Origin: an uncultured Pirellulaceae bacterium
GTDB taxonomy: Bacteria > Planctomycetota > Planctomycetia > Pirellulales > Pirellulaceae
Reading direction: 5' to 3'
DNA: 64,000 nt
Assembly (NCBI GenBank): GCA_937921995.1
Contig: CAKZVF010000065.1
Coordinates: forward strand, 62,001-126,000
The position numbers and the translations under genes are program-made. A model generated the notes under the pieces. The model searched no databases, had not been told where the DNA came from, and was given only the letters and a program-made list of their open reading frames with translations. Positions 28,708 through 40,943 of this stretch are shown one piece after another; positions within the stretch are counted from its first letter, which is position 1; the number at the start of each line of letters is the position of its first letter.

Positions 28708-29068
28708 ATGGTTTCCATTTGAAAGATCGACATTTTAGGGACAAGCCAATCGGTGTCAAACGGAGTTCTTACGTTTTTCGGCTTTTGGCCCCAAGATTTT
28801 GAAGCAAACTCGACTTTCTTGGCAATTCCTGAGACTCCCGGCAATCCGGTGGATGACTGACAACGAAAGTAACGGCAGTGTTCGCCTCATTTGTCCATTC
28901 AAAACATTTTAACATTCTGCAAGTTACAAATTGGGCGAAATGCACCACGCCCACCTATCGAAATTATTCAGGGGCCTTACTTTGAAGAACATCTCGATCG
29001 TCTCGAAAAACGTTTTTTGGTATGATCCTGCCAGCCCCCTTTTTAGATATCAGTTTACAGGTTTGATT
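28708..29068. other. Intergenic region between tRNA-Ile and the redoxin-like gene
   Basis: It is AT-rich and has no supported gene. The track frame starting at 28931 (TTG) is only an upstream extension of the redoxin ORF. TATGAT at 29021-29026 is a possible -10 box for that gene, but no good -35 hexamer sits at the right distance, so no promoter is called. The promoter of the minus-strand tRNA genes should also lie here. Confidence 0.5.
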
Positions 29069-31003
29069 ATGATCCCCTCGGTTGTCACCGTTTTAAGAAT
29101 CACCGTGTTGTCGTCGATTGTCACTTGCATGGCCTTTTTAGGCACGTCTGCGAACGCTCAGAATCAAGTGGAGAAGTCGTTCAACATCAAGCCCAAGCAG
29201 CCCGGCGTTGACTGCGACATGCCCGACGCAGCGGCGCGGAACAAGTGCAAGGTTGAAATGGCCAACGAAAAGTTTGGTTTACCTGGGTTTGTCGTGTTTG
29301 ACGATACCGAACGGATTCTTCGATTGTTTCTCGATCGCAACAAGGACGGGAAGTTGGACCGATGGTCGTACTACAAAGACGGCATCGAAGTCTATCGCGA
29401 CAGCGACAACGATTACGACGGGAAACTGGACGAGTTCCGTTGGCTTGGCAGCGGTGGAACTCGAAAAGGTGTTGATCCCAACGAAGATGGTGAGATTGAT
29501 CGCTGGGAGCTGATCTCGGTGCAAGAGGTGGCCGAAGAGGCGTTTTACGCGATCCAAAACCGAGACAACGTACGCTTTGGTCGCTTGCTGATTTCGGACG
29601 AAGAGTTCAGGTCGCTGGGACTAAAAGGTAAGGTAGGAAGTGAATTTGCCAAGCGCGTCGATGCTGCTCGGAAGGGTTTCAGCTCGATGGCCCGCGGCCA
29701 AAAGCAAATCGGCAAGTCGACAAATTTTGTGTACTCTGGGCCGGGCCAACCAGGCGTTGCCGCCGCTAGTGAGCGCGATGGAATTACAAAAGACATCGTT
29801 TGCTACGACCACGCTTCGGTGGTGTATAAGAATGGTCAGACCACGGGTAACTTGGCTCTGGGCACCATCATTAAAGTCAACGATACTTGGCGTTTAATGG
29901 AACTCCCGGAGATCGTTGATCCCAACAAAGCGATTCAAACCGGAGGGGCACTGTTTCCAATGCAATTGTACACAGTAGACCCGGTAATCCCTGGGGGAGA
30001 TGACCCAAGGCTTGCCAACGCTTATGAGGAGTTCGAAAAAATCGACAAAACGTTGCAGGGACTCTTAGAAGAGGGTAATCCAAAAAAGAATGCCGTCCGC
30101 ATCGCTTCGCTTCATGAGGAAAAAGCAATGGCTGGCATCGCGATCTACAACTTGGTGCCCAAAGACCAAAAGTACAGTTGGCTGCAGAATATCGCGGACA
30201 CTGTTTCTGATGCCTATCAGAAAGAAGAGTACCCGCGCGGACTTTCCTTCTTGAAGGAATTTAGTGATAAGTTGAGTGCCGCCAAACGCACCGAAGGTTT
30301 GGACTACATTCGCTGGCGTTCGGTATTTGCGAAGTACCAACTGATCATTCAGGTGAAGGACAGTCAGGCGCGAAGAGCAGCGTTAAAGGACCTGATGGAC
30401 GATTTAAAGAAGTTTGTCAACCAATATCCCAACAGCGAATTCGCCCCCGATGCACTGTTCCAACTTGGATTCAACAGTGAAATCGATAACGGCGGGGACA
30501 ACACTGAAGCCATCAAAATGTATACGTTATTGGCGCGAAAATATGGCGACACTAATTTTGGCAAACGTGCCAAGGGCGCACTGGCAAGGCTTCAGGGTAA
30601 GGGGAAGCCGATTTCGTTTAAGGGCAAAACGACCGATGGAAAACTTTTTGATTCTGCGTCGCAAAGAGGCAAGATCGTGCTGATTCACTTTTGGAATACC
30701 GATGCCACAAACGGACTCAACGAAATTCAGAAGCTCAACGCGAAGTATGACAAGGAATTAGTAGTCATTGGAGCGAACATCAATATGCAAACCAAGGATT
30801 TCCAAGCGTACATGAGACAAAATCGTGAAATCAATTGGACTCAATTGCATTCGCCCGGCGGAATGGATAAAAGCGAGTTAGCCATGCAAATTGGCTTGGT
30901 CTCTTTGCCAATGGCTTTGTTGATCGATAAAGAAGGTAAATTGATCGAGACGAACTTGCCTTTCCCAGACTTAGATCGCGAAATCCAACGATTGTCTCGA
31001 TAG
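29069..31003 (+). CDS. Secreted redoxin-fold protein without redox cysteines, with Asp-rich Ca-binding-like repeats
   Basis: This protein has about 644 residues from the ATG at 29069, which opens a clean signal peptide (VLRITVLSSIVTCMAFLGTSANAQ); the track start at 28931 would bury it. Residues about 60-150 hold loops rich in Asp/Gly, such as DRNKDGKLDRW, DSDNDYDGKLDEF and DPNEDGEIDRW. These look like EF-hand or thrombospondin-type calcium loops. A TPR-like helical part follows. The C-terminal 130 residues are an AhpC/TlpA-type thioredoxin fold (GKIVLIHFWNTDATNG). The CxxC site reads TDAT, so the redox centre is lost. It probably works in the periplasm as a binding or structural protein. Confidence 0.8.
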   Translation: MIPSVVTVLRITVLSSIVTCMAFLGTSANAQNQVEKSFNIKPKQPGVDCDMPDAAARNKCKVEMANEKFGLPGFVVFDDTERILRLFLDRNKDGKLDRWSYYKDGIEVYRDSDNDYDGKLDEFRWLGSGGTRKGVDPNEDGEIDRWELISVQEVAEEAFYAIQNRDNVRFGRLLISDEEFRSLGLKGKVGSEFAKRVDAARKGFSSMARGQKQIGKSTNFVYSGPGQPGVAAASERDGITKDIVCYDHASVVYKNGQTTGNLALGTIIKVNDTWRLMELPEIVDPNKAIQTGGALFPMQLYTVDPVIPGGDDPRLANAYEEFEKIDKTLQGLLEEGNPKKNAVRIASLHEEKAMAGIAIYNLVPKDQKYSWLQNIADTVSDAYQKEEYPRGLSFLKEFSDKLSAAKRTEGLDYIRWRSVFAKYQLIIQVKDSQARRAALKDLMDDLKKFVNQYPNSEFAPDALFQLGFNSEIDNGGDNTEAIKMYTLLARKYGDTNFGKRAKGALARLQGKGKPISFKGKTTDGKLFDSASQRGKIVLIHFWNTDATNGLNEIQKLNAKYDKELVVIGANINMQTKDFQAYMRQNREINWTQLHSPGGMDKSELAMQIGLVSLPMALLIDKEGKLIETNLPFPDLDREIQRLSR

Positions 31004-31016
31004 TCGGATCATCAAT

Positions 31017-31036
31017 CGCCCCGGGAAACCGGGGCG
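31017..31036 (+). terminator. GC hairpin with GAAA loop after the redoxin-like gene
   Basis: CGCCCCGG-GAAA-CCGGGGCG is a perfect 8-bp stem with a GNRA tetraloop, 13 bp after the stop at 31003. The following TTCATCGTTT is only weakly T-rich. It may act as a terminator or belong to the neighbouring palindromic repeat. Confidence 0.5.
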
Positions 31037-31042
31037 TTCATC

Positions 31043-31115
31043 GTTTAACGACGAGCCGGAAGGCGACCGTGTTTGGCGGGGCAAAACGCCGACGCCTGCC
31101 GGCTAGTCGTTAAAC
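31043..31115. repeat. Palindromic intergenic repeat with 23-bp arms
   Basis: GTTTAACGACGAGCCGG-type sequence (31043-31065) pairs with 31093-31115 at 21 of 23 positions in inverted orientation, around a 27-bp centre. A small hairpin GGGCG-GTTT-CGCCC follows at 31146-31159. The regularity resembles a dispersed planctomycete repeat; copy number is untested. Because the ABC gene's track frame starts (TTG 31120) inside this repeat region, that start is unlikely. Confidence 0.75.
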
Positions 31116-31266
31116 AGGGTTGAGTCATGCCACCGGTCGTTGGATGGGCGGTTTCGCCCGTTCGAATGCTTCCATTGCGGTCGAGCGTTGCCAAGCTGCG
31201 ATTAAATCGACAGTCCCTGAAGATCCGTCACTCAATAGCGGCATGGGTAATTATACTTCTTACGAC

Positions 31267-32046
31267 ATGCTACTAAATTTTCAAAACATCTCTGCCTATC
31301 GAGGGCTGAATCTGGCCCTCGATTCGATTTCTTTCCAAGTCGCATCTGAGCAGAACACCGTCATTCTTGGCCCCAACGGTGCCGGGAAGTCGACGTTGTT
31401 GAAGTTGATGGCGCGGGAACTATATCCGGTCGTTGCTGACGACTCTGAATTGAAGATCTTTGGCGAAGACCGCTGGAGCATCTGGGATCTGCGCAAACGA
31501 TTAGGGTTCGTTTCTCCAGACGTGCAGTTTCGATACAACGGTCACGTCGTCGGTTTGGATGTGATCCTGTCCGGATTCGATGCAACCATTGGTCACGTCG
31601 ATCGGTCGGAATTGACGACCGCACAAATCGACCGCGGCCACCAAGTCGCCGATGAACTGGGCATTACTGACCTGCTGGAAAAGCCCTACCGAAAAATGTC
31701 TTCGGGGCAGCAGCGCCGGTTTATCTTAGGACGCGCCTTAGTTCACCAACCCGAACTATTGATCTTCGACGAACCGACGACGGGGTTGGATCTCAGAGGC
31801 GTCTATGAATTTCACAAACGCACGTCGCGGTTGATCGCCAGTGGGGCGACGGTGCTGCTGGTGACGCATCATTTGCATGAAATTTCGCCAGAGATCGACC
31901 GCGTGATTCTTTTGAAAGAGGGCAGGATTTTTCAAGAGGGCACCAAAGCCGAAACGTTGACCGATGCCAATCTGAGTGAACTGTTTGGGTTTCCTTTGGT
32001 CGTTAGCTGCGACGAAGGTTTCTATCACGCGGTGTCCAAGGCTTAG
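31267..32046 (+). CDS. ABC transporter ATP-binding protein
   Basis: This protein has about 259 residues from the ATG at 31267 (MLLNFQNISAYRGLNLALD), where the domain begins. An ATG at 31243 is an alternative, and the TTG at 31120 lies in repeat DNA. It has LGPNGAGKSTLLKL (Walker A), KMSSGQQRRFILGRAL (signature), LLIFDEPTTGLDLRG (Walker B) and VTHHLHEI (H-loop). The general shape fits ATPases of small importers or of YlmA-like molybdate/iron families. No permease or binding protein is adjacent, so it may act with a membrane partner elsewhere or be a soluble ABC protein. It is followed by 408 bp that hold a SulP promoter candidate and no gene. Confidence 0.88.
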   Translation: MLLNFQNISAYRGLNLALDSISFQVASEQNTVILGPNGAGKSTLLKLMARELYPVVADDSELKIFGEDRWSIWDLRKRLGFVSPDVQFRYNGHVVGLDVILSGFDATIGHVDRSELTTAQIDRGHQVADELGITDLLEKPYRKMSSGQQRRFILGRALVHQPELLIFDEPTTGLDLRGVYEFHKRTSRLIASGATVLLVTHHLHEISPEIDRVILLKEGRIFQEGTKAETLTDANLSELFGFPLVVSCDEGFYHAVSKA

Positions 32047-34403: not shown

Positions 34404-35726
34404 ATGTCCCGACGACAGATTCTCTTGTTTGTGCTGATGGTCGCTAGCAGTCTGAGCTCAGGCTGCTGCTGGCGTCGAGATGTACCAGCGCGGTGCTGTC
34501 CTCCGCTGACGTCACAACAGGTGCCGCTGTCGGTCAGTCCCAAAATCGAAGGCGCTGGCGTGGAAGCCTCTTTCGATGCGTTGCCCCGGTACGAAACGAT
34601 CAGACAATCCATTTTGGCCCAGGTTGCCGCCGATGGCGTGCTCGCGATCAACCTCGACGAGGTCATTTGTTTGGCGGCTCAGAATTCTCAATTGGCCGAA
34701 GTGATCGACCAAGAACGGCAACTGTTGGATTGCCAGGACGGCCAGCATTGCGAAAAAACGGCCCTGGAGATTGCTTTGCAAGGCGAGAGTCTTGAGCAGC
34801 GGAATGTGGTTGCCGGAGCAGCGGGGGAACTGTTTCTGGGGTTGGTCCAGATTTCGCTGCAACTTGAACTGCTGGAAGAAGCAAACGCTCACCTCGACGA
34901 TTTACAAATAAAGGTCGATGCCGCTGACGAAGCCGGGTTTGCGACAGCCGAAGGGAAAAACGAAGTTGAAAAGGGCAGGCTGGAATTGCAGAAGCAACGG
35001 GTTGAACTCGATAGCGCCCATCAAAAGTTGACTTGGCAACTCAACATGCTGCTCAACCCCGGTAGCGATACCGCAGTTATATTCCAGCCGGTCCACCATT
35101 TGGATCCTCAGCCCGTTTCAACCGATGTGCGGTATCAAACCGGATTGGCTGAAACAAACCGGCCCGGCGTGAGAGCCACGGAGATGGCGTTGGCAGCTGA
35201 TCGAAGCGGTGTTGCTGCGTATCAGTTATTGAAACTGTTTGATAGTCGATTGGGCACGCAATTGGACGCCAGTCCGATCAAAAAACGATTGCTGAGAAAT
35301 CAAATCGTCGAAATTATTAGCCGGTCGGAAACGCCTGACCCGACGTTGCGAAGTCGCCAAGAACAGGCCAATCGAGTAGTGGAACTTCGTAAACGCGAAG
35401 CCGCCGTCAGTGCGGGTAAGGCGTTGCTTGACCGGCAAACGGCGTTTGAGAAACTGACCGTCATTCAGGCCGACATACAGCGACTGCAGGAACGATCGGA
35501 GACACTTGTCGCCAGCAAGGAAATTGATGCCAAGGACGTGTATCTCAAAGAAAACCAGAATTGGATTGAACTTCAAAAGGCGCGTTCAGAACGCATCTCC
35601 GCGGCCATCGACTTCGAAGTGGCTGACCTAAAACTCAAACAGGCCCAAGGCAAGCTGATTGAATCGTGCGGGTTCCAGCTGGAATCTGGATCTTCTTGTT
35701 GCGTCAACCAATGCAACTGCCAATAA
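34404..35726 (+). CDS. TolC-like outer-membrane efflux protein
   Basis: This protein of 440 residues has a signal peptide (ILLFVLMVASSLSSG) followed by a Cys cluster. The Cys after SSG could be lipid-modified, but position -3 is Ser, so the lipobox is weak. The body shows the two long coiled-coil halves of the OEP family: residues about 130-220 (ELFLGLVQISLQLELLEEAN, FATAEGKNEVEKGRLELQKQ) and about 330-430 (VIQADIQRLQERSETLVASK). Beta-barrel strands are short, so it may be a minimal or lipid-anchored version. It lies 426 bp upstream of the HlyD-DevC-DevC-DevA genes on the same strand and probably forms the outer-membrane channel of that exporter (inference). It ends with a Cys-rich tail. Confidence 0.78.
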   Translation: MSRRQILLFVLMVASSLSSGCCWRRDVPARCCPPLTSQQVPLSVSPKIEGAGVEASFDALPRYETIRQSILAQVAADGVLAINLDEVICLAAQNSQLAEVIDQERQLLDCQDGQHCEKTALEIALQGESLEQRNVVAGAAGELFLGLVQISLQLELLEEANAHLDDLQIKVDAADEAGFATAEGKNEVEKGRLELQKQRVELDSAHQKLTWQLNMLLNPGSDTAVIFQPVHHLDPQPVSTDVRYQTGLAETNRPGVRATEMALAADRSGVAAYQLLKLFDSRLGTQLDASPIKKRLLRNQIVEIISRSETPDPTLRSRQEQANRVVELRKREAAVSAGKALLDRQTAFEKLTVIQADIQRLQERSETLVASKEIDAKDVYLKENQNWIELQKARSERISAAIDFEVADLKLKQAQGKLIESCGFQLESGSSCCVNQCNCQ

Positions 35727-35740
35727 TGCAACTGCCAATA
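35711..35740. repeat. Perfect 15-bp tandem duplication across the stop codon of the TolC-like gene
   Basis: ATGCAACTGCCAATA occurs twice in direct succession. The TAA stop of the gene (35724-35726) spans the junction of the two copies, so the duplication made or moved the stop. Confidence 0.9.
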
Positions 35741-36152
35741 GCGTGTTTTGGGGGGGCTGGCTGAATCCGACACCGGTCTTTCATCCATGTTGCTGCCGAT
35801 ACGCTATACTTCTTTCGTAACCGTTCACGGTCATTGTCGCTCGATTCTCCCAGTCGTAAGCGTGCCGATGTGAAAAGTGTTCCAATTCTTACCTCATTGC
35901 CCGAAATTAAACCAAACGTGCTCACGCTATCAGCTTGGAAAGCTGAGCGACAATGAGTGATTCGAGTCATGGTCGTGAACGGATGCCTTCCTTCGTCGAT
36001 TAGACGAAAAATAGGCAAACGAACCCTTTATATATTGGCTCAACATTTCATCTCGAACTACGCTGAAAAGACGCGGTTCGACGAGACGACCGGGCCACGG
36101 AAACGCTCGCAAGCAAAGGTTCGATGGGTATTATTGGGTTGATCAATAAATC
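35741..36152. other. Intergenic region before the exporter genes
   Basis: No ORF with a family resemblance is present. TATATT near 36037 is the only promoter-like hexamer, without a good -35 partner. A short CGTC-GATTA-GACG hairpin occurs near 35995. The promoter of the exporter operon is expected here but not identified. Confidence 0.45.
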
Positions 36153-37337
36153 ATGCGTACATTTTTAACCATACTTATCATCACGGTGCTCGCTGGTAGC
36201 GGCTATTACGCTTCGATGATGCAGAAGTCGAGCCCCGGAGCGGCGGCTGAAGAGGCATCGGTCACGCAAACATCAAACGTCGATTCGACTGAACAGGTTG
36301 TTGGTGATGTGATTCGCTGTCAGGGGAAATTGGAACCGGCATCGGGGCTGATCAATATCGTTGCCCCGGTCGGTTCAAGAATTTCCGGTTTGATAGACGT
36401 CCCCGTCGGGGGAACCGTGGCCGAGGGCGATGTGTTGGTGACGTTGCAGAGCCGCGAAATACGACTGCAAGAGTTGAAGCTGGCGCAGGCACGACGCACC
36501 GATGCGATCAGCAACGCGGATTTCGAAAAGGATCAAGCACAGTACAAGCTTTCTTCGGCAAAACTGGCGGTGGAAGAAGCGGGTGCCGCCGATGAGAAAA
36601 TCGCAACCGAAAAACAGAAGATTCAGTTGTTGCGGCGACAGTGCGAATCGAGCGAAATGTTGCTGGGCCGTTTGCGATCACTTCGGTCCAATCCGGCAAC
36701 ACAAGACTTGCTGAACCAGACCGATCTTGAGAAACAGCAATTGGTCGTCGAACAACTGCGCATGCAAATTGAACAGGCGGAACTTACGGTCGAACTGAGC
36801 AAGAAAAGCGCTGCCAGAGCAAAGCAGGCAGCAGAGAACAGCGTCCGCACGATCGAAAGCTCTCTGGAGAATTCTGACAAAGCCGTTCCCATGACGACGC
36901 TGGACGCGGCCGTCGAAATGGCCCAGGCAGCGCTGGACATGACCGAAATCAAATCGCCGATTGAGAATGCAACAATTTTGGACATCATCGTCCGCGAAGG
37001 AGATTCGGTCACCAACAAACCCGTGATGGTGATTGGCGATACTTCTCAGATGCACTGTGTCGCTGAAGTCAGTGATCAATTTCTGCATCTTATCGACCTC
37101 GAGGAGAATCCAAACCTGGTCGCCAAGATCTCCGCATCAGCGCTCCCCGAAACCCTCTCGGGAAAAATTATTTCCAAGGGCGTAATGATCGGTGCTGCAT
37201 CGCTCAGCGACCCCAACCCTTTCGGCAAGGTCGATCGTTCAACTGGAAACGTGACGATCAAACTGGATGACCCCTCGGCGGCGGCCCAGCTGGTCAATTT
37301 GCAAGTCAATGTGGAAATAGAAATTCAAAAAGACTAA
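36153..37337 (+). CDS. HlyD/DevB-like periplasmic adaptor (membrane-fusion protein)
   Basis: This protein has 394 residues. A single N-terminal membrane anchor (FLTILIITVLAGSGYYASMM) leads to the periplasm. A lipoyl half-motif follows (VAPVGSRISGLIDVPVGGTVAEGDVLVTLQ). A long alpha-helical hairpin covers residues about 110-260 (EKDQAQYKLSSAKLAVEEAG ...). The second lipoyl half reads ATILDIIVREGDSVTNKPVMVIG. A beta-barrel part ends the protein. DevB-type adaptors bridge DevAC to TolC. The gene starts the exporter run, with 97 bp to the first permease gene. Confidence 0.9.
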   Translation: MRTFLTILIITVLAGSGYYASMMQKSSPGAAAEEASVTQTSNVDSTEQVVGDVIRCQGKLEPASGLINIVAPVGSRISGLIDVPVGGTVAEGDVLVTLQSREIRLQELKLAQARRTDAISNADFEKDQAQYKLSSAKLAVEEAGAADEKIATEKQKIQLLRRQCESSEMLLGRLRSLRSNPATQDLLNQTDLEKQQLVVEQLRMQIEQAELTVELSKKSAARAKQAAENSVRTIESSLENSDKAVPMTTLDAAVEMAQAALDMTEIKSPIENATILDIIVREGDSVTNKPVMVIGDTSQMHCVAEVSDQFLHLIDLEENPNLVAKISASALPETLSGKIISKGVMIGAASLSDPNPFGKVDRSTGNVTIKLDDPSAAAQLVNLQVNVEIEIQKD

Positions 37338-37434
37338 CCTCGTTGTCAGGAAGTGTTGAGGTGAGTCTGACCTTAGTCGATCAGGTGCCACCCCGCATTG
37401 CGATCGACGGTTTGAAGATTCGAGCGACACAACT

Positions 37435-38625
37435 ATGGCAACTCCGCTTTCTATCTATAACCTGAAAGAAGGCGGCTGGCGCACGGTTCTGTCGATCAGC
37501 GGAATCAGCATTGCCGTTACCCTGATTTTCATGCAGTTGGGGTTTCTTGGTGCGGTATTGGATACCGCGGTGCTGTTTTACAACAACCTGAAGTTCGATC
37601 TGGTCGTCCGGTCGCCAAATTATTACCATTTCTGCGACGCGAATAAATTTCAGCGCTCCCATTTGGACGTGATTCTCAACGACACCGCGGTTGATGCGAT
37701 TCAGCCCTTTCACATCAGCCTTGGCAAATGGAACTACGCCGAAGTGGCGACACAGCGTGGTATTCTGATCATGGGTGTCGCTCCGCAGGGAGAAACGTTC
37801 TCCCCGCACAATAGTTACGTCGATCTTCCAGACCTCAAAAAGCTCGACCGTCCACGTGCCATTCTGGTTGACAAGAAATCACGGCCTCAGTTCTTAGGCG
37901 CAGAGAATCGAGAACGATTCAATGCAGATCAAATCGGATTGAAGGTCGAACTGAATCAAAAGACGTGTGAACTCACTGGGCTCTTTGAACTGGGGACGGG
38001 TTTAGCGGCCAACGGTGCTTCGGTCATTCACGAAAACGATTTCCGGGATCTTTTTCCAAATTATGGAGAAGAAGATCTCTCGTTGGGATTGGTGCAGTTT
38101 TCGAAATCCGGCAGTCATGATCCGGCGACCGTTCGAAAACGCATCTATGAAATGATGGGCGTCAAAAATGGTCAGACACCGGAGGTAGAAGTCCTCACGC
38201 GCGACGAAGTGGTTTATCGCGAGGTCATGCACTGGATTGGCAACACGCCGATCGGATTCATTTTCATCGCAGGCGTCGTTGTGGCGTTGATTGTCGGGGC
38301 GATCGTCGTCTACATCGTGCTTTCTTCGGACATCAGCAAACAGATCGGCGAATATGCAACGCTTAAGGCGATGGGTTACCGCAATAGTTATCTGTCGCGC
38401 GTGGTGCTGGAACAAGCCGTGATCTTGGGCGTGATCAGCTACGTGGTGGCGTTTGCGGTTTCGCTGGTTCTTTACGAGGTGGTCGGTAAAGCCGCGAATT
38501 TGCCGATCACGATGAGCCTCCAGCGGCAGGTGATCGTCTTTTCGGCCACGATCATCATGTGTTGTGTTTCGGGTTCAATCGCGATGAAAAAGTTAACCAA
38601 GGCCGACCCCGCGGATTTGTTCTAG
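37435..38625 (+). CDS. FtsX/DevC-like ABC permease (first copy)
   Basis: This protein of 396 residues has the MacB/DevC layout. An N-terminal span (VLSISGISIAVTLIFMQLGFLGAVLDTAV) is followed by a large extracytoplasmic domain (about 40-270). Three C-terminal spans follow (PIGFIFIAGVVVALIVGAIVVYIVL, VVLEQAVILGVISYVVAFAVSLVL, IVFSATIIMCCVSGSIAM). The loop EYATLKAMGYRNSYLSRVV is the FtsX-type coupling segment that docks on the ATPase. It is followed after 2 bp by a second permease, so the pair probably forms a heterodimer. Confidence 0.92.
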   Translation: MATPLSIYNLKEGGWRTVLSISGISIAVTLIFMQLGFLGAVLDTAVLFYNNLKFDLVVRSPNYYHFCDANKFQRSHLDVILNDTAVDAIQPFHISLGKWNYAEVATQRGILIMGVAPQGETFSPHNSYVDLPDLKKLDRPRAILVDKKSRPQFLGAENRERFNADQIGLKVELNQKTCELTGLFELGTGLAANGASVIHENDFRDLFPNYGEEDLSLGLVQFSKSGSHDPATVRKRIYEMMGVKNGQTPEVEVLTRDEVVYREVMHWIGNTPIGFIFIAGVVVALIVGAIVVYIVLSSDISKQIGEYATLKAMGYRNSYLSRVVLEQAVILGVISYVVAFAVSLVLYEVVGKAANLPITMSLQRQVIVFSATIIMCCVSGSIAMKKLTKADPADLF

Positions 38626-38627
38626 CC

Positions 38628-39806
38628 ATGCATCTATTCCTCGCCGCAAAACTCGCTTGGTCCAACACGACTGCAGACATGCAGCGGTTGTTGGTGCGCT
38701 GTTCGGGAGTGACGTTTGCGGTCGTGTTGATGTTCATGCAAACCGGATTTCGCAACGCGCTGTTTGACAGCAACGTGCGAATCATGGAAGAGAAAATCAC
38801 GGCCGACATTGTGATCCGCATCAAGTCGCGATTCATGCTGTCCAGTGGTCAGCAAATGCCTTTGCAGGATGTAATCACGGCGCGGTCTTGCGAGGGTGTT
38901 GCGGCAGCCGAACCCGTTTACATCGAAAACGTTCTGTCTGATTTTCACCGCGTTGGCTTGGCGTCGAGGAAGATCAGGGTTCTCGGTTTCGATCCCTCCG
39001 ATCCATTGTTTGAGAACTTTGGACTGAAACCACTGGCCGATAAACTGAATCAGCCCATGACCGCTGCCGTGGACGTGAAGAGCAAATCAATGTTCGGTCT
39101 GCCGGTGAACAAGAACGAGCTGGCCGAACAGCCTTTTGCTGAACTGGTCAACAAAAAGCTGGAATTGGTGGGATTGTTTCAATGCGGAATCAATTTCTCC
39201 AACGATGGCACGATCGCCATGACGCCGGAGAATTTTGCCAAGTATTTTTCCGTCCGTGGAGGCGGGAAGCCTCTCTCCAAAGTCGATTACGGCGTCGTGA
39301 AATGTCATCCCGACGCCAATCCCGATGTTGTCGCGCATCGGCTGCAGCGCATGTTGGGCCCGCACTTGATCGTTCAGACACACGCCGATTTTTTAAAATC
39401 TGAGCGAAACTTCTGGGGCAAAAACACGCCTATCGGTTTGATTTTTTGGGTAGGGACGATGATCGGTTTCGTGGTGGGACTGATTATCTGTTACCAAGTT
39501 TTAGCGACCGACATTGGCGACCACATGGGAGAATTCGCGACGCTTAAAGCGATGGGATATCCAACATCGTTTTTCACCTCCGTCGTTGTGGTCCAAGCGC
39601 TGTTGCTTTCGCTGATCTCGTTTGTGCCGGGATTCTTGATCGCGCTGACGGCATTTAACATTATCAACATCAGTTCGGGCCTGATCATGTTCCTCAACGT
39701 TCAACGAACCGCGCTTGTGCTGGGCCTGACCGTGGCGATGTGTGTGATCTCGGGCGTCATTGCGTTGCGGCGGCTATTATCAGCAGACCCGGCCAGCCTT
39801 TTTTAA
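38628..39806 (+). CDS. FtsX/DevC-like ABC permease (second copy)
   Basis: This protein has about 392 residues from the ATG at 38628, 2 bp after the first permease stop; the track start at 38559 would overlap that gene. It has the same layout as its neighbour: a span at the N-terminus (LVRCSGVTFAVVLMFMQTGFRNALF), a large periplasmic domain, and three C-terminal spans. The coupling loop reads EFATLKAMGYPTSFFTSVVVV and matches the first copy closely, while the periplasmic domains differ more. Two distinct permeases with one ATPase gene suggest a heterodimeric transporter. Confidence 0.92.
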   Translation: MHLFLAAKLAWSNTTADMQRLLVRCSGVTFAVVLMFMQTGFRNALFDSNVRIMEEKITADIVIRIKSRFMLSSGQQMPLQDVITARSCEGVAAAEPVYIENVLSDFHRVGLASRKIRVLGFDPSDPLFENFGLKPLADKLNQPMTAAVDVKSKSMFGLPVNKNELAEQPFAELVNKKLELVGLFQCGINFSNDGTIAMTPENFAKYFSVRGGGKPLSKVDYGVVKCHPDANPDVVAHRLQRMLGPHLIVQTHADFLKSERNFWGKNTPIGLIFWVGTMIGFVVGLIICYQVLATDIGDHMGEFATLKAMGYPTSFFTSVVVVQALLLSLISFVPGFLIALTAFNIINISSGLIMFLNVQRTALVLGLTVAMCVISGVIALRRLLSADPASLF

Positions 39807-39821
39807 AAACCAAACACTACA

Positions 39822-40943
39822 ATGGTTGCGACCATGAACAAATTTTCAAAAGACGCCCCTGTTATTGAAGTCGATGGCTTGAACCATTTTTTTGGTTCCG
39901 GCGACTCCAAGACGCAAGCACTGTTCGACAACAAGCTCAAGGTGCGTCCTGGCGAAATCGTTATCATGACCGGGCCATCGGGGTCAGGTAAAACGACTTT
40001 GTTGACCCTGATCGGCACATTACGCACCGTCCAAAGTGGCAGCTTGAAAATACTCGGCGAAGAACTTAACGGCATGTCCCAGGCCGGTTTGACAGCAGTT
40101 CGAAAAAAGATCGGCTTCATTTTCCAAGCCCACAACCTATTCGGTTCATTGACGGCCTATCAAAACGTGAAGATGGCAACCGAACTGGTAGGCCAAAAGA
40201 ACAAGGAAGTAAAACCGCGCATCGAACAACTGCTGACGCGGCTTGGGATGGGAGAACGCATCCACTACAAACCAAAGTCACTCTCCGGCGGACAGAAGCA
40301 ACGTGTGGCGGTCGCACGTGGTTTGATCCATAGCCCACGCATTGTGCTGGCCGATGAACCAACGGCGGCGTTGGACGAAGAATCCGGTCGCGCGGCGGTG
40401 ACGCTTCTCCGAGAGATGGCCGATCGTGATGGCTGCACGGTGCTGATTGTCACCCACGACAATCGAATCTTGGACGTTGCCGATCGCATCATCAACATGG
40501 TCGCGGGCCGTATCAAGAACGATTCGGATATTCACGAAACCGAAAAGATCTGCGAATTTTTACAAGCGACCGAATTCTTTTCGGACCTTACGCCGCGCAC
40601 GTTGGCTGACGTCGCGAATAACATCGAAGCACGCGTTTTCGAACCTGGCGAAGCGATCGTGTCCCAAGGGGACGATGGGCTGGAGTTCTTCATGATTAAC
40701 GAAGGCAGTGTGACCGTCGAGCGCACCGACGTCGCTGGCAAGACGGAGACGCTTAAGCAATTAGACAAAGGCAGTTACTTCGGCGAAGTGGCTCTGATCA
40801 AGAATCAGCCTCGTAATGCGTCCGTGATCGCTAAGACAAAAACAACCTGCTACGTGCTGGACCGGGAAGAATTCCGCGCGGTGGTGGACACGAGCGATTC
40901 GTTTGAATCCGAATTGCGGAAAGCGCTGTTCGAAAGGAACTAG
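39822..40943 (+). CDS. DevA-like ABC ATPase fused to a cyclic-nucleotide-binding domain
   Basis: This 373-residue protein is a fusion. Residues about 10-230 are a MacB/DevA-type ATPase: MTGPSGSGKTTLLTLIGTLR (Walker A), SLSGGQKQRVAVARGL (signature), VLADEPTAALDEE (Walker B) and VTHDNR (H-loop). Residues about 240-373 are a cyclic-nucleotide-binding domain: PGEAIVSQGDDGLEFFMINEG, then the phosphate-binding cassette FGEVALIKNQPRNASV. It keeps the Glu and Arg that contact the ribose and cyclic phosphate and resembles the PKA regulatory-subunit cassette. Transport may therefore respond to cAMP or cGMP (inference). It lies 15 bp after the second permease. Confidence 0.93.
   Translation: MVATMNKFSKDAPVIEVDGLNHFFGSGDSKTQALFDNKLKVRPGEIVIMTGPSGSGKTTLLTLIGTLRTVQSGSLKILGEELNGMSQAGLTAVRKKIGFIFQAHNLFGSLTAYQNVKMATELVGQKNKEVKPRIEQLLTRLGMGERIHYKPKSLSGGQKQRVAVARGLIHSPRIVLADEPTAALDEESGRAAVTLLREMADRDGCTVLIVTHDNRILDVADRIINMVAGRIKNDSDIHETEKICEFLQATEFFSDLTPRTLADVANNIEARVFEPGEAIVSQGDDGLEFFMINEGSVTVERTDVAGKTETLKQLDKGSYFGEVALIKNQPRNASVIAKTKTTCYVLDREEFRAVVDTSDSFESELRKALFERN

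Follow-up and report, generated by a model that had tools for sequence, protein, structure and literature searches.

The window analysed here is a stretch of 64,000 nucleotides from an uncultured Pirellulaceae bacterium. At positions 34404-40943 of its forward strand we found five genes, which encode in this order an OMF-like lipoprotein, DevB, DevC1, DevC2 and a DevA carrying a C-terminal cyclic-nucleotide (CNB) domain (DevA-CNB). The features are as follows.

34404..35726, + strand: OMF-like lipoprotein with a predicted TolC/OprM fold, 440 aa (OEP matches in its family; fold matches to OprM, CmeC and TolC; Cys21 in 13/13)
34452..34466, + strand: lipobox-like LSSGC, residues 17-21 of the OMF-like protein, read from the sequence (Gly20 and Cys21 conserved)
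36153..37337, + strand: DevB-family periplasmic adaptor (TIGR02971 above cut-off)
37435..38625, + strand: DevC1 permease, FtsX/MacB-type (TIGR01185 end to end, PF02687; C1 clade SH-aLRT 100)
38628..39806, + strand: DevC2 permease (TIGR01185 end to end; C2 clade SH-aLRT 98)
39822..40943, + strand: DevA ATPase with C-terminal CNB domain, 373 aa (TIGR02982 and PF00027 above cut-off; AlphaFold mean pLDDT 82)
39861..40517, + strand: ABC nucleotide-binding domain, DevA residues 14-232 (TIGR02982)
40632..40892, + strand: CNB domain, DevA residues 271-357 (PF00027)
40779..40826, + strand: phosphate-binding cassette FGEVALIKNQPRNASV, DevA residues 320-335, with Glu322 and Arg331 (F320, G321, E322, R331 and A333 in 69/69)
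40863..40937, + strand: C-terminal helices after the CNB domain, DevA residues 348-372, a candidate lid (DSSP of the model; Ser358, Phe361 and Arg372 conserved)

DevB matches TIGR02971 with 145.3 bits (cut-off 129) and DevA matches TIGR02982 over residues 14-232 with 333.4 bits (cut-off 295.8), which places them in the DevB and DevA families. The two permeases match the DevC model TIGR01185 from end to end with 259.5 and 277.8 bits, a little short of the equivalog threshold (290.35); on these matches they are DevC homologues below the DevC equivalog level. DevC2 probably starts at the ATG at 38628, just past the DevC1 stop, rather than at the GTG at 38559, and 15 nt separate the DevC2 stop from the start of devA, so that DevC1, DevC2 and DevA are nearly contiguous. 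The original prediction of TolC-like, DevB-like, two DevC-like and DevA-like genes in order on one strand is thus borne out by the coordinates and the family matches. Upstream of the exporter, at 28931-32046, lie a thioredoxin-fold protein with a TPR-like region and a separate ABC ATPase; they do not recur beside the exporter in the compared loci.

The TolC-like label of the first gene rests on its family and its predicted fold. The window protein itself has no OEP (PF02321) match, although seven of the 13 members of its family do, and a search with the family profile gives a weak match to TolC (E 0.006). Its predicted fold matches OprM, CmeC and TolC by Foldseek with E values of 3e-5 to 2e-4 and a TM of about 0.5, and on this model the protein has a TolC/OprM fold. 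The lipobox cysteine, Cys21, is invariant in the 13 family sequences and Gly20 is conserved. In the model the barrel strands are absent, and at the position of the first outer-membrane hairpin all 13 aligned sequences have a short loop. The protein therefore likely lacks the outer-membrane beta hairpins and may be a barrel-less exit duct; we say likely rather than proven because the region of the second hairpin is modelled with low pLDDT. Homologues of this protein were found in 33 of 80 loci.

In the AlphaFold model of DevA both domains are folded, and the best solved matches are MacB-type ATPases, MacB being on top in fold and in sequence. Walker A, Q-loop, signature, Walker B and H-loop are invariant in the fused clade. 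Residues 271-357 match PF00027 with E 6.9e-24 and 84 bits against a cut-off of 27.5, and the best solved matches of the isolated CNB domain are apicomplexan PKG-type proteins and PKA regulatory subunits. In an alignment of 69 fused planctomycete DevA sequences, F320, G321, E322, R331 and A333 are invariant, and the cassette Glu and Arg are also kept in all seven further fusions (six verrucomicrobial, one pseudomonadotal), despite identities to the window DevA that go down to 44%. By its residues the domain carries the phosphate cassette of a CNB domain. The proposal that DevA ends in a PKA-type domain with the residues for cyclic phosphate agrees with these matches and with the strong constraint on the residues; loss of the Arg or Glu in orthologues, named with the proposal as what would speak against it, was not seen, since both are invariant in the 69 sequences and the seven other fusions. 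PKA and PKG regulatory domains are the best sequence matches of the window CNB domain and have the cassette Glu and Arg in common with it. The window domain differs in that it is single and is joined to an ABC ATPase rather than serving to regulate a kinase, and in residue 332, next to the cassette Arg, which is Asn in 66 of the 69 sequences and Lys in three, neither PKA's Ala nor PKG's Thr.

To follow the fusion, we surveyed DevA homologues, as had been suggested with the original prediction. Fused DevA is present in 15 of 60 relatives. At the level of the order it is widespread: 92 of 397 genomes match a DevA-CNB profile and 89 carry the fusion, a few of these being cut by contig ends or split. 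We also found it in 4/392 genomes of a phylum-wide sample, in 6/289 Verrucomicrobiota and in 1/195 Pseudomonadota. Since it recurs across dozens of genera with invariant ligand residues, the fusion is not a product of chance, and on this record it is old and conserved. In the planctomycete tree the fused ATPase domains form one clade (SH-aLRT 96). With a larger taxon set, one unfused sequence (L277) falls inside this clade, by either loss of the domain or long-branch attraction.

Among 194 cyanobacteria, DevA is common and nearly always unfused among the matches listed. In one genome, G1164, which has a single DevC at this locus, DevA bears two CNB domains in tandem (L299:7225-8667), the second of which has lost the cassette Arg; it is an independent fusion, because its DevA groups with unfused cyanobacterial DevA. 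In a Verrucomicrobia MAG (L049:7417-8805), DevA beside a single DevC has a C-terminal GAF domain instead of a CNB domain, a separate recruitment of a small-molecule sensor. Such separate CNB and GAF additions in other lineages suggest more than one origin of ligand gating in this exporter class. Three Verrucomicrobiota loci (L278, L279 and L283) carry a DevA with a C-terminal extension of about 200 residues; in L283, the one of the three that was scanned, no reported Pfam match covers it.

The fusion is accompanied by a second feature, the permease pair. Two adjacent DevC genes are present in 50 of 69 fused loci, and a single DevC in all ten intact unfused loci (an eleventh row, L215, is a fusion cut by a contig end and was left out). 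In trees the pairs split into a DevC1 and a DevC2 clade, in fixed order, with SH-aLRT values of 100 and 98; the Verrucomicrobiota pairs group with the same two clades, and the Pseudomonadota cassette has the gene order of the window. When strong DevC matches (E 1e-60) were counted genome-wide, at least two were found in 84 of the 397 genomes, all of them among the 89 with the fusion, and in none of the 308 without it (Fisher p about 1e-80, a value inflated by the relatedness of the sampled genomes). The five fused genomes with only one strong match are fragmented assemblies. The original prediction of two DevC-like permeases was right as to their presence and missed that, by these trees and counts, DevC1 and DevC2 are distinct paralogues of ancient divergence that go with the fusion. 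The gene content and its order, the fusion itself, the constraint on the ligand residues and the co-inheritance with the two permeases can all be read in the sequences.

We also considered that one DevC had been lost in some fused loci. In 16 fused genomes the pair beside devA is absent or incomplete; typing by profile recovered genes of both types, DevC1 and DevC2, at other sites or dispersed in 13 of them, so that dispersed genes or contig ends mostly account for these cases. The 13 include the complete chromosomes G638 and G756, and in G638 one gene of each type lie about 1 Mb apart. The exceptions are G651, with one DevC and an untyped fragment, G013, with one DevC and a truncated gene, and G120 (90% complete), with only one. 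In G058 (L036:9038-11704), DevA-CNB lies directly downstream of an MMPL-family gene and the DevC pair is on another contig.

As for the ligand, class III cyclase homologues are present in all 24 genomes searched, with and without the fusion, and a RelA_SpoT synthetase in one of the 24. Since RelA/SpoT was also published as zero in sampled Planctomycetes and Verrucomicrobia (PMC3153485), ppGpp is unlikely as ligand, and from the cyclase counts cAMP or cGMP is possible. The genome of the window (assembly 77% complete) has only one class III cyclase homologue, an FHA-GAF-cyclase-like protein, which keeps the metal and transition-state residues but in our reading lacks the canonical residues for base recognition, Asp and Pro standing in those positions. 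In the 80 loci, neither a cyclase gene nor biosynthetic genes, including those for glycolipids, recur beside the exporter, and only the four pump families do. In these loci no linked gene names ligand or cargo, and a heterocyst-type glycolipid as cargo is not supported.

Because sensor and permease pair are inherited together, a small signalling molecule appears to control export directly. We rather favour an exporter of the MacB/DevBCA type in which DevC1 and DevC2 pair as a heterodimer, with two DevA that each bear a CNB domain, and which a nucleotide-like ligand gates. We infer the heterodimer, the binding of a ligand and the regulation with its direction. DevC1 and DevC2 would form the inner-membrane permease. 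Two DevA copies, in which the CNB domain lies on the C-terminal side of the nucleotide-binding domain, would drive it, and DevB would join the pump to the TolC-fold lipoprotein duct, so that both cell membranes are spanned. LolC and LolE, with LolD, are a model for two permeases on one ATPase, and as in that pair the heterodimer may orient the pump or define a side of cargo entry. The ligand, a nucleotide-like molecule of the cytosol and in the simplest case cAMP or cGMP, would occupy the intact phosphate cassette and move the C-terminal helices, which would allow or block closure of the two ATPase domains; no new transcription would therefore be needed for export to follow the amount of ligand. 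In proposing that the two CNB domains as a pair would set how the ATPase domains close, we follow the analogy of BusA/OpuA, in which the transporter is locked by c-di-AMP bound to the CBS domains of its ATPase; c-di-AMP binds these domains on BusAA and OpuCA and inhibits BusA transport (PMC10243994). The likeness is a regulatory domain of the ATPase subunit as second-messenger site, binding being only predicted for the window protein; BusA/OpuA and OpuC differ as osmolyte importers with CBS domains for c-di-AMP (PMC10243994). In the window system, the tight coupling of the sensor with the permease pair gives a clear mechanistic prediction.

The narrower version is a widespread exporter family in which cAMP or cGMP would gate export directly, by way of a PKA/PKG-type domain of the ATPase, and which would require the asymmetric DevC1/DevC2 and, in the window's lineage, a barrel-less TolC-fold lipoprotein. 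We put this version forward tentatively; if true, it would be a post-translational control of envelope export in these bacteria. It is possible, to a similar degree, that the CNB domain binds another nucleotide or a phosphorylated metabolite, the exporter being ligand-gated by something other than a classical cyclic mononucleotide. The Asn next to the cassette Arg and the non-canonical base-recognition positions of the local cyclase homologue point that way, as does HetC, the peptidase-containing ABC exporter of Nostoc: its CNB domain is required for function and binds ppGpp (Kd 59 uM) and GTP, not cAMP (PMC10986499). However, ppGpp itself is unlikely here, as given above, and the residues that bind cyclic phosphate are all retained. 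HetC also differs from the window system in being a one-chain C39-peptidase transporter with the CNB domain at its N-terminus (PMC10986499); no C39 peptidase or transmembrane Pfam domain was found in the window DevA.

CNB folds can act as scaffolds, and conservation extends to some residues of the C-terminal helices as well, so the domain might serve dimerisation or docking without any ligand. We regard this as improbable, since Glu322 and Arg331 are absolute across 76 divergent sequences, which argues for a bound phosphate and ribose. It is still harder to believe that the system is an ordinary DevBCA glycolipid exporter, as the family membership of DevA, DevB and DevC might suggest, with the CNB domain as a neutral addition: the domain occurs widely with its ligand residues kept, and it goes with DevC1/DevC2, whereas unfused cassettes have a single DevC, and the 80 loci hold no recurrent glycolipid genes beside the exporter.

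The proposed ligand-gated exporter can be set beside its nearest known relatives. Like it, HgdD-DevBCA, the heterocyst glycolipid exporter of Anabaena PCC 7120, has a DevB adaptor, a DevC permease, a separate DevA and a TolC-type duct; the window system differs by its two DevC paralogues, the CNB domain on DevA and the divergent duct. The Anabaena exporter is not known to carry a CNB domain. For Anabaena a single DevC and a single DevA are described, both dimeric (PMC6161253). MacAB-TolC and LolCDE belong to the same ATPase/permease superfamily and differ in lacking a CNB domain, MacB being a fused homodimer and LolCDE not being tripartite. The arrangement had been thought uncharacterised, and a literature search on DevA and cyclic nucleotides in Planctomycetes turned up no description of DevA-CNB. 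As far as this literature shows, what is new is the CNB-fused DevA tied to a DevC1/DevC2 pair, the DevBCA/MacB kind itself being already known. In the favoured reading the motor of an ABC exporter would sense a nucleotide messenger by means of its CNB domain, in a group of bacteria for which little is known of signalling of this kind. The genome of the window holds another CNB protein (L235, G000:C149), in which, from our reading of the sequence, the domain is fused to an apparent patatin-type lipase.
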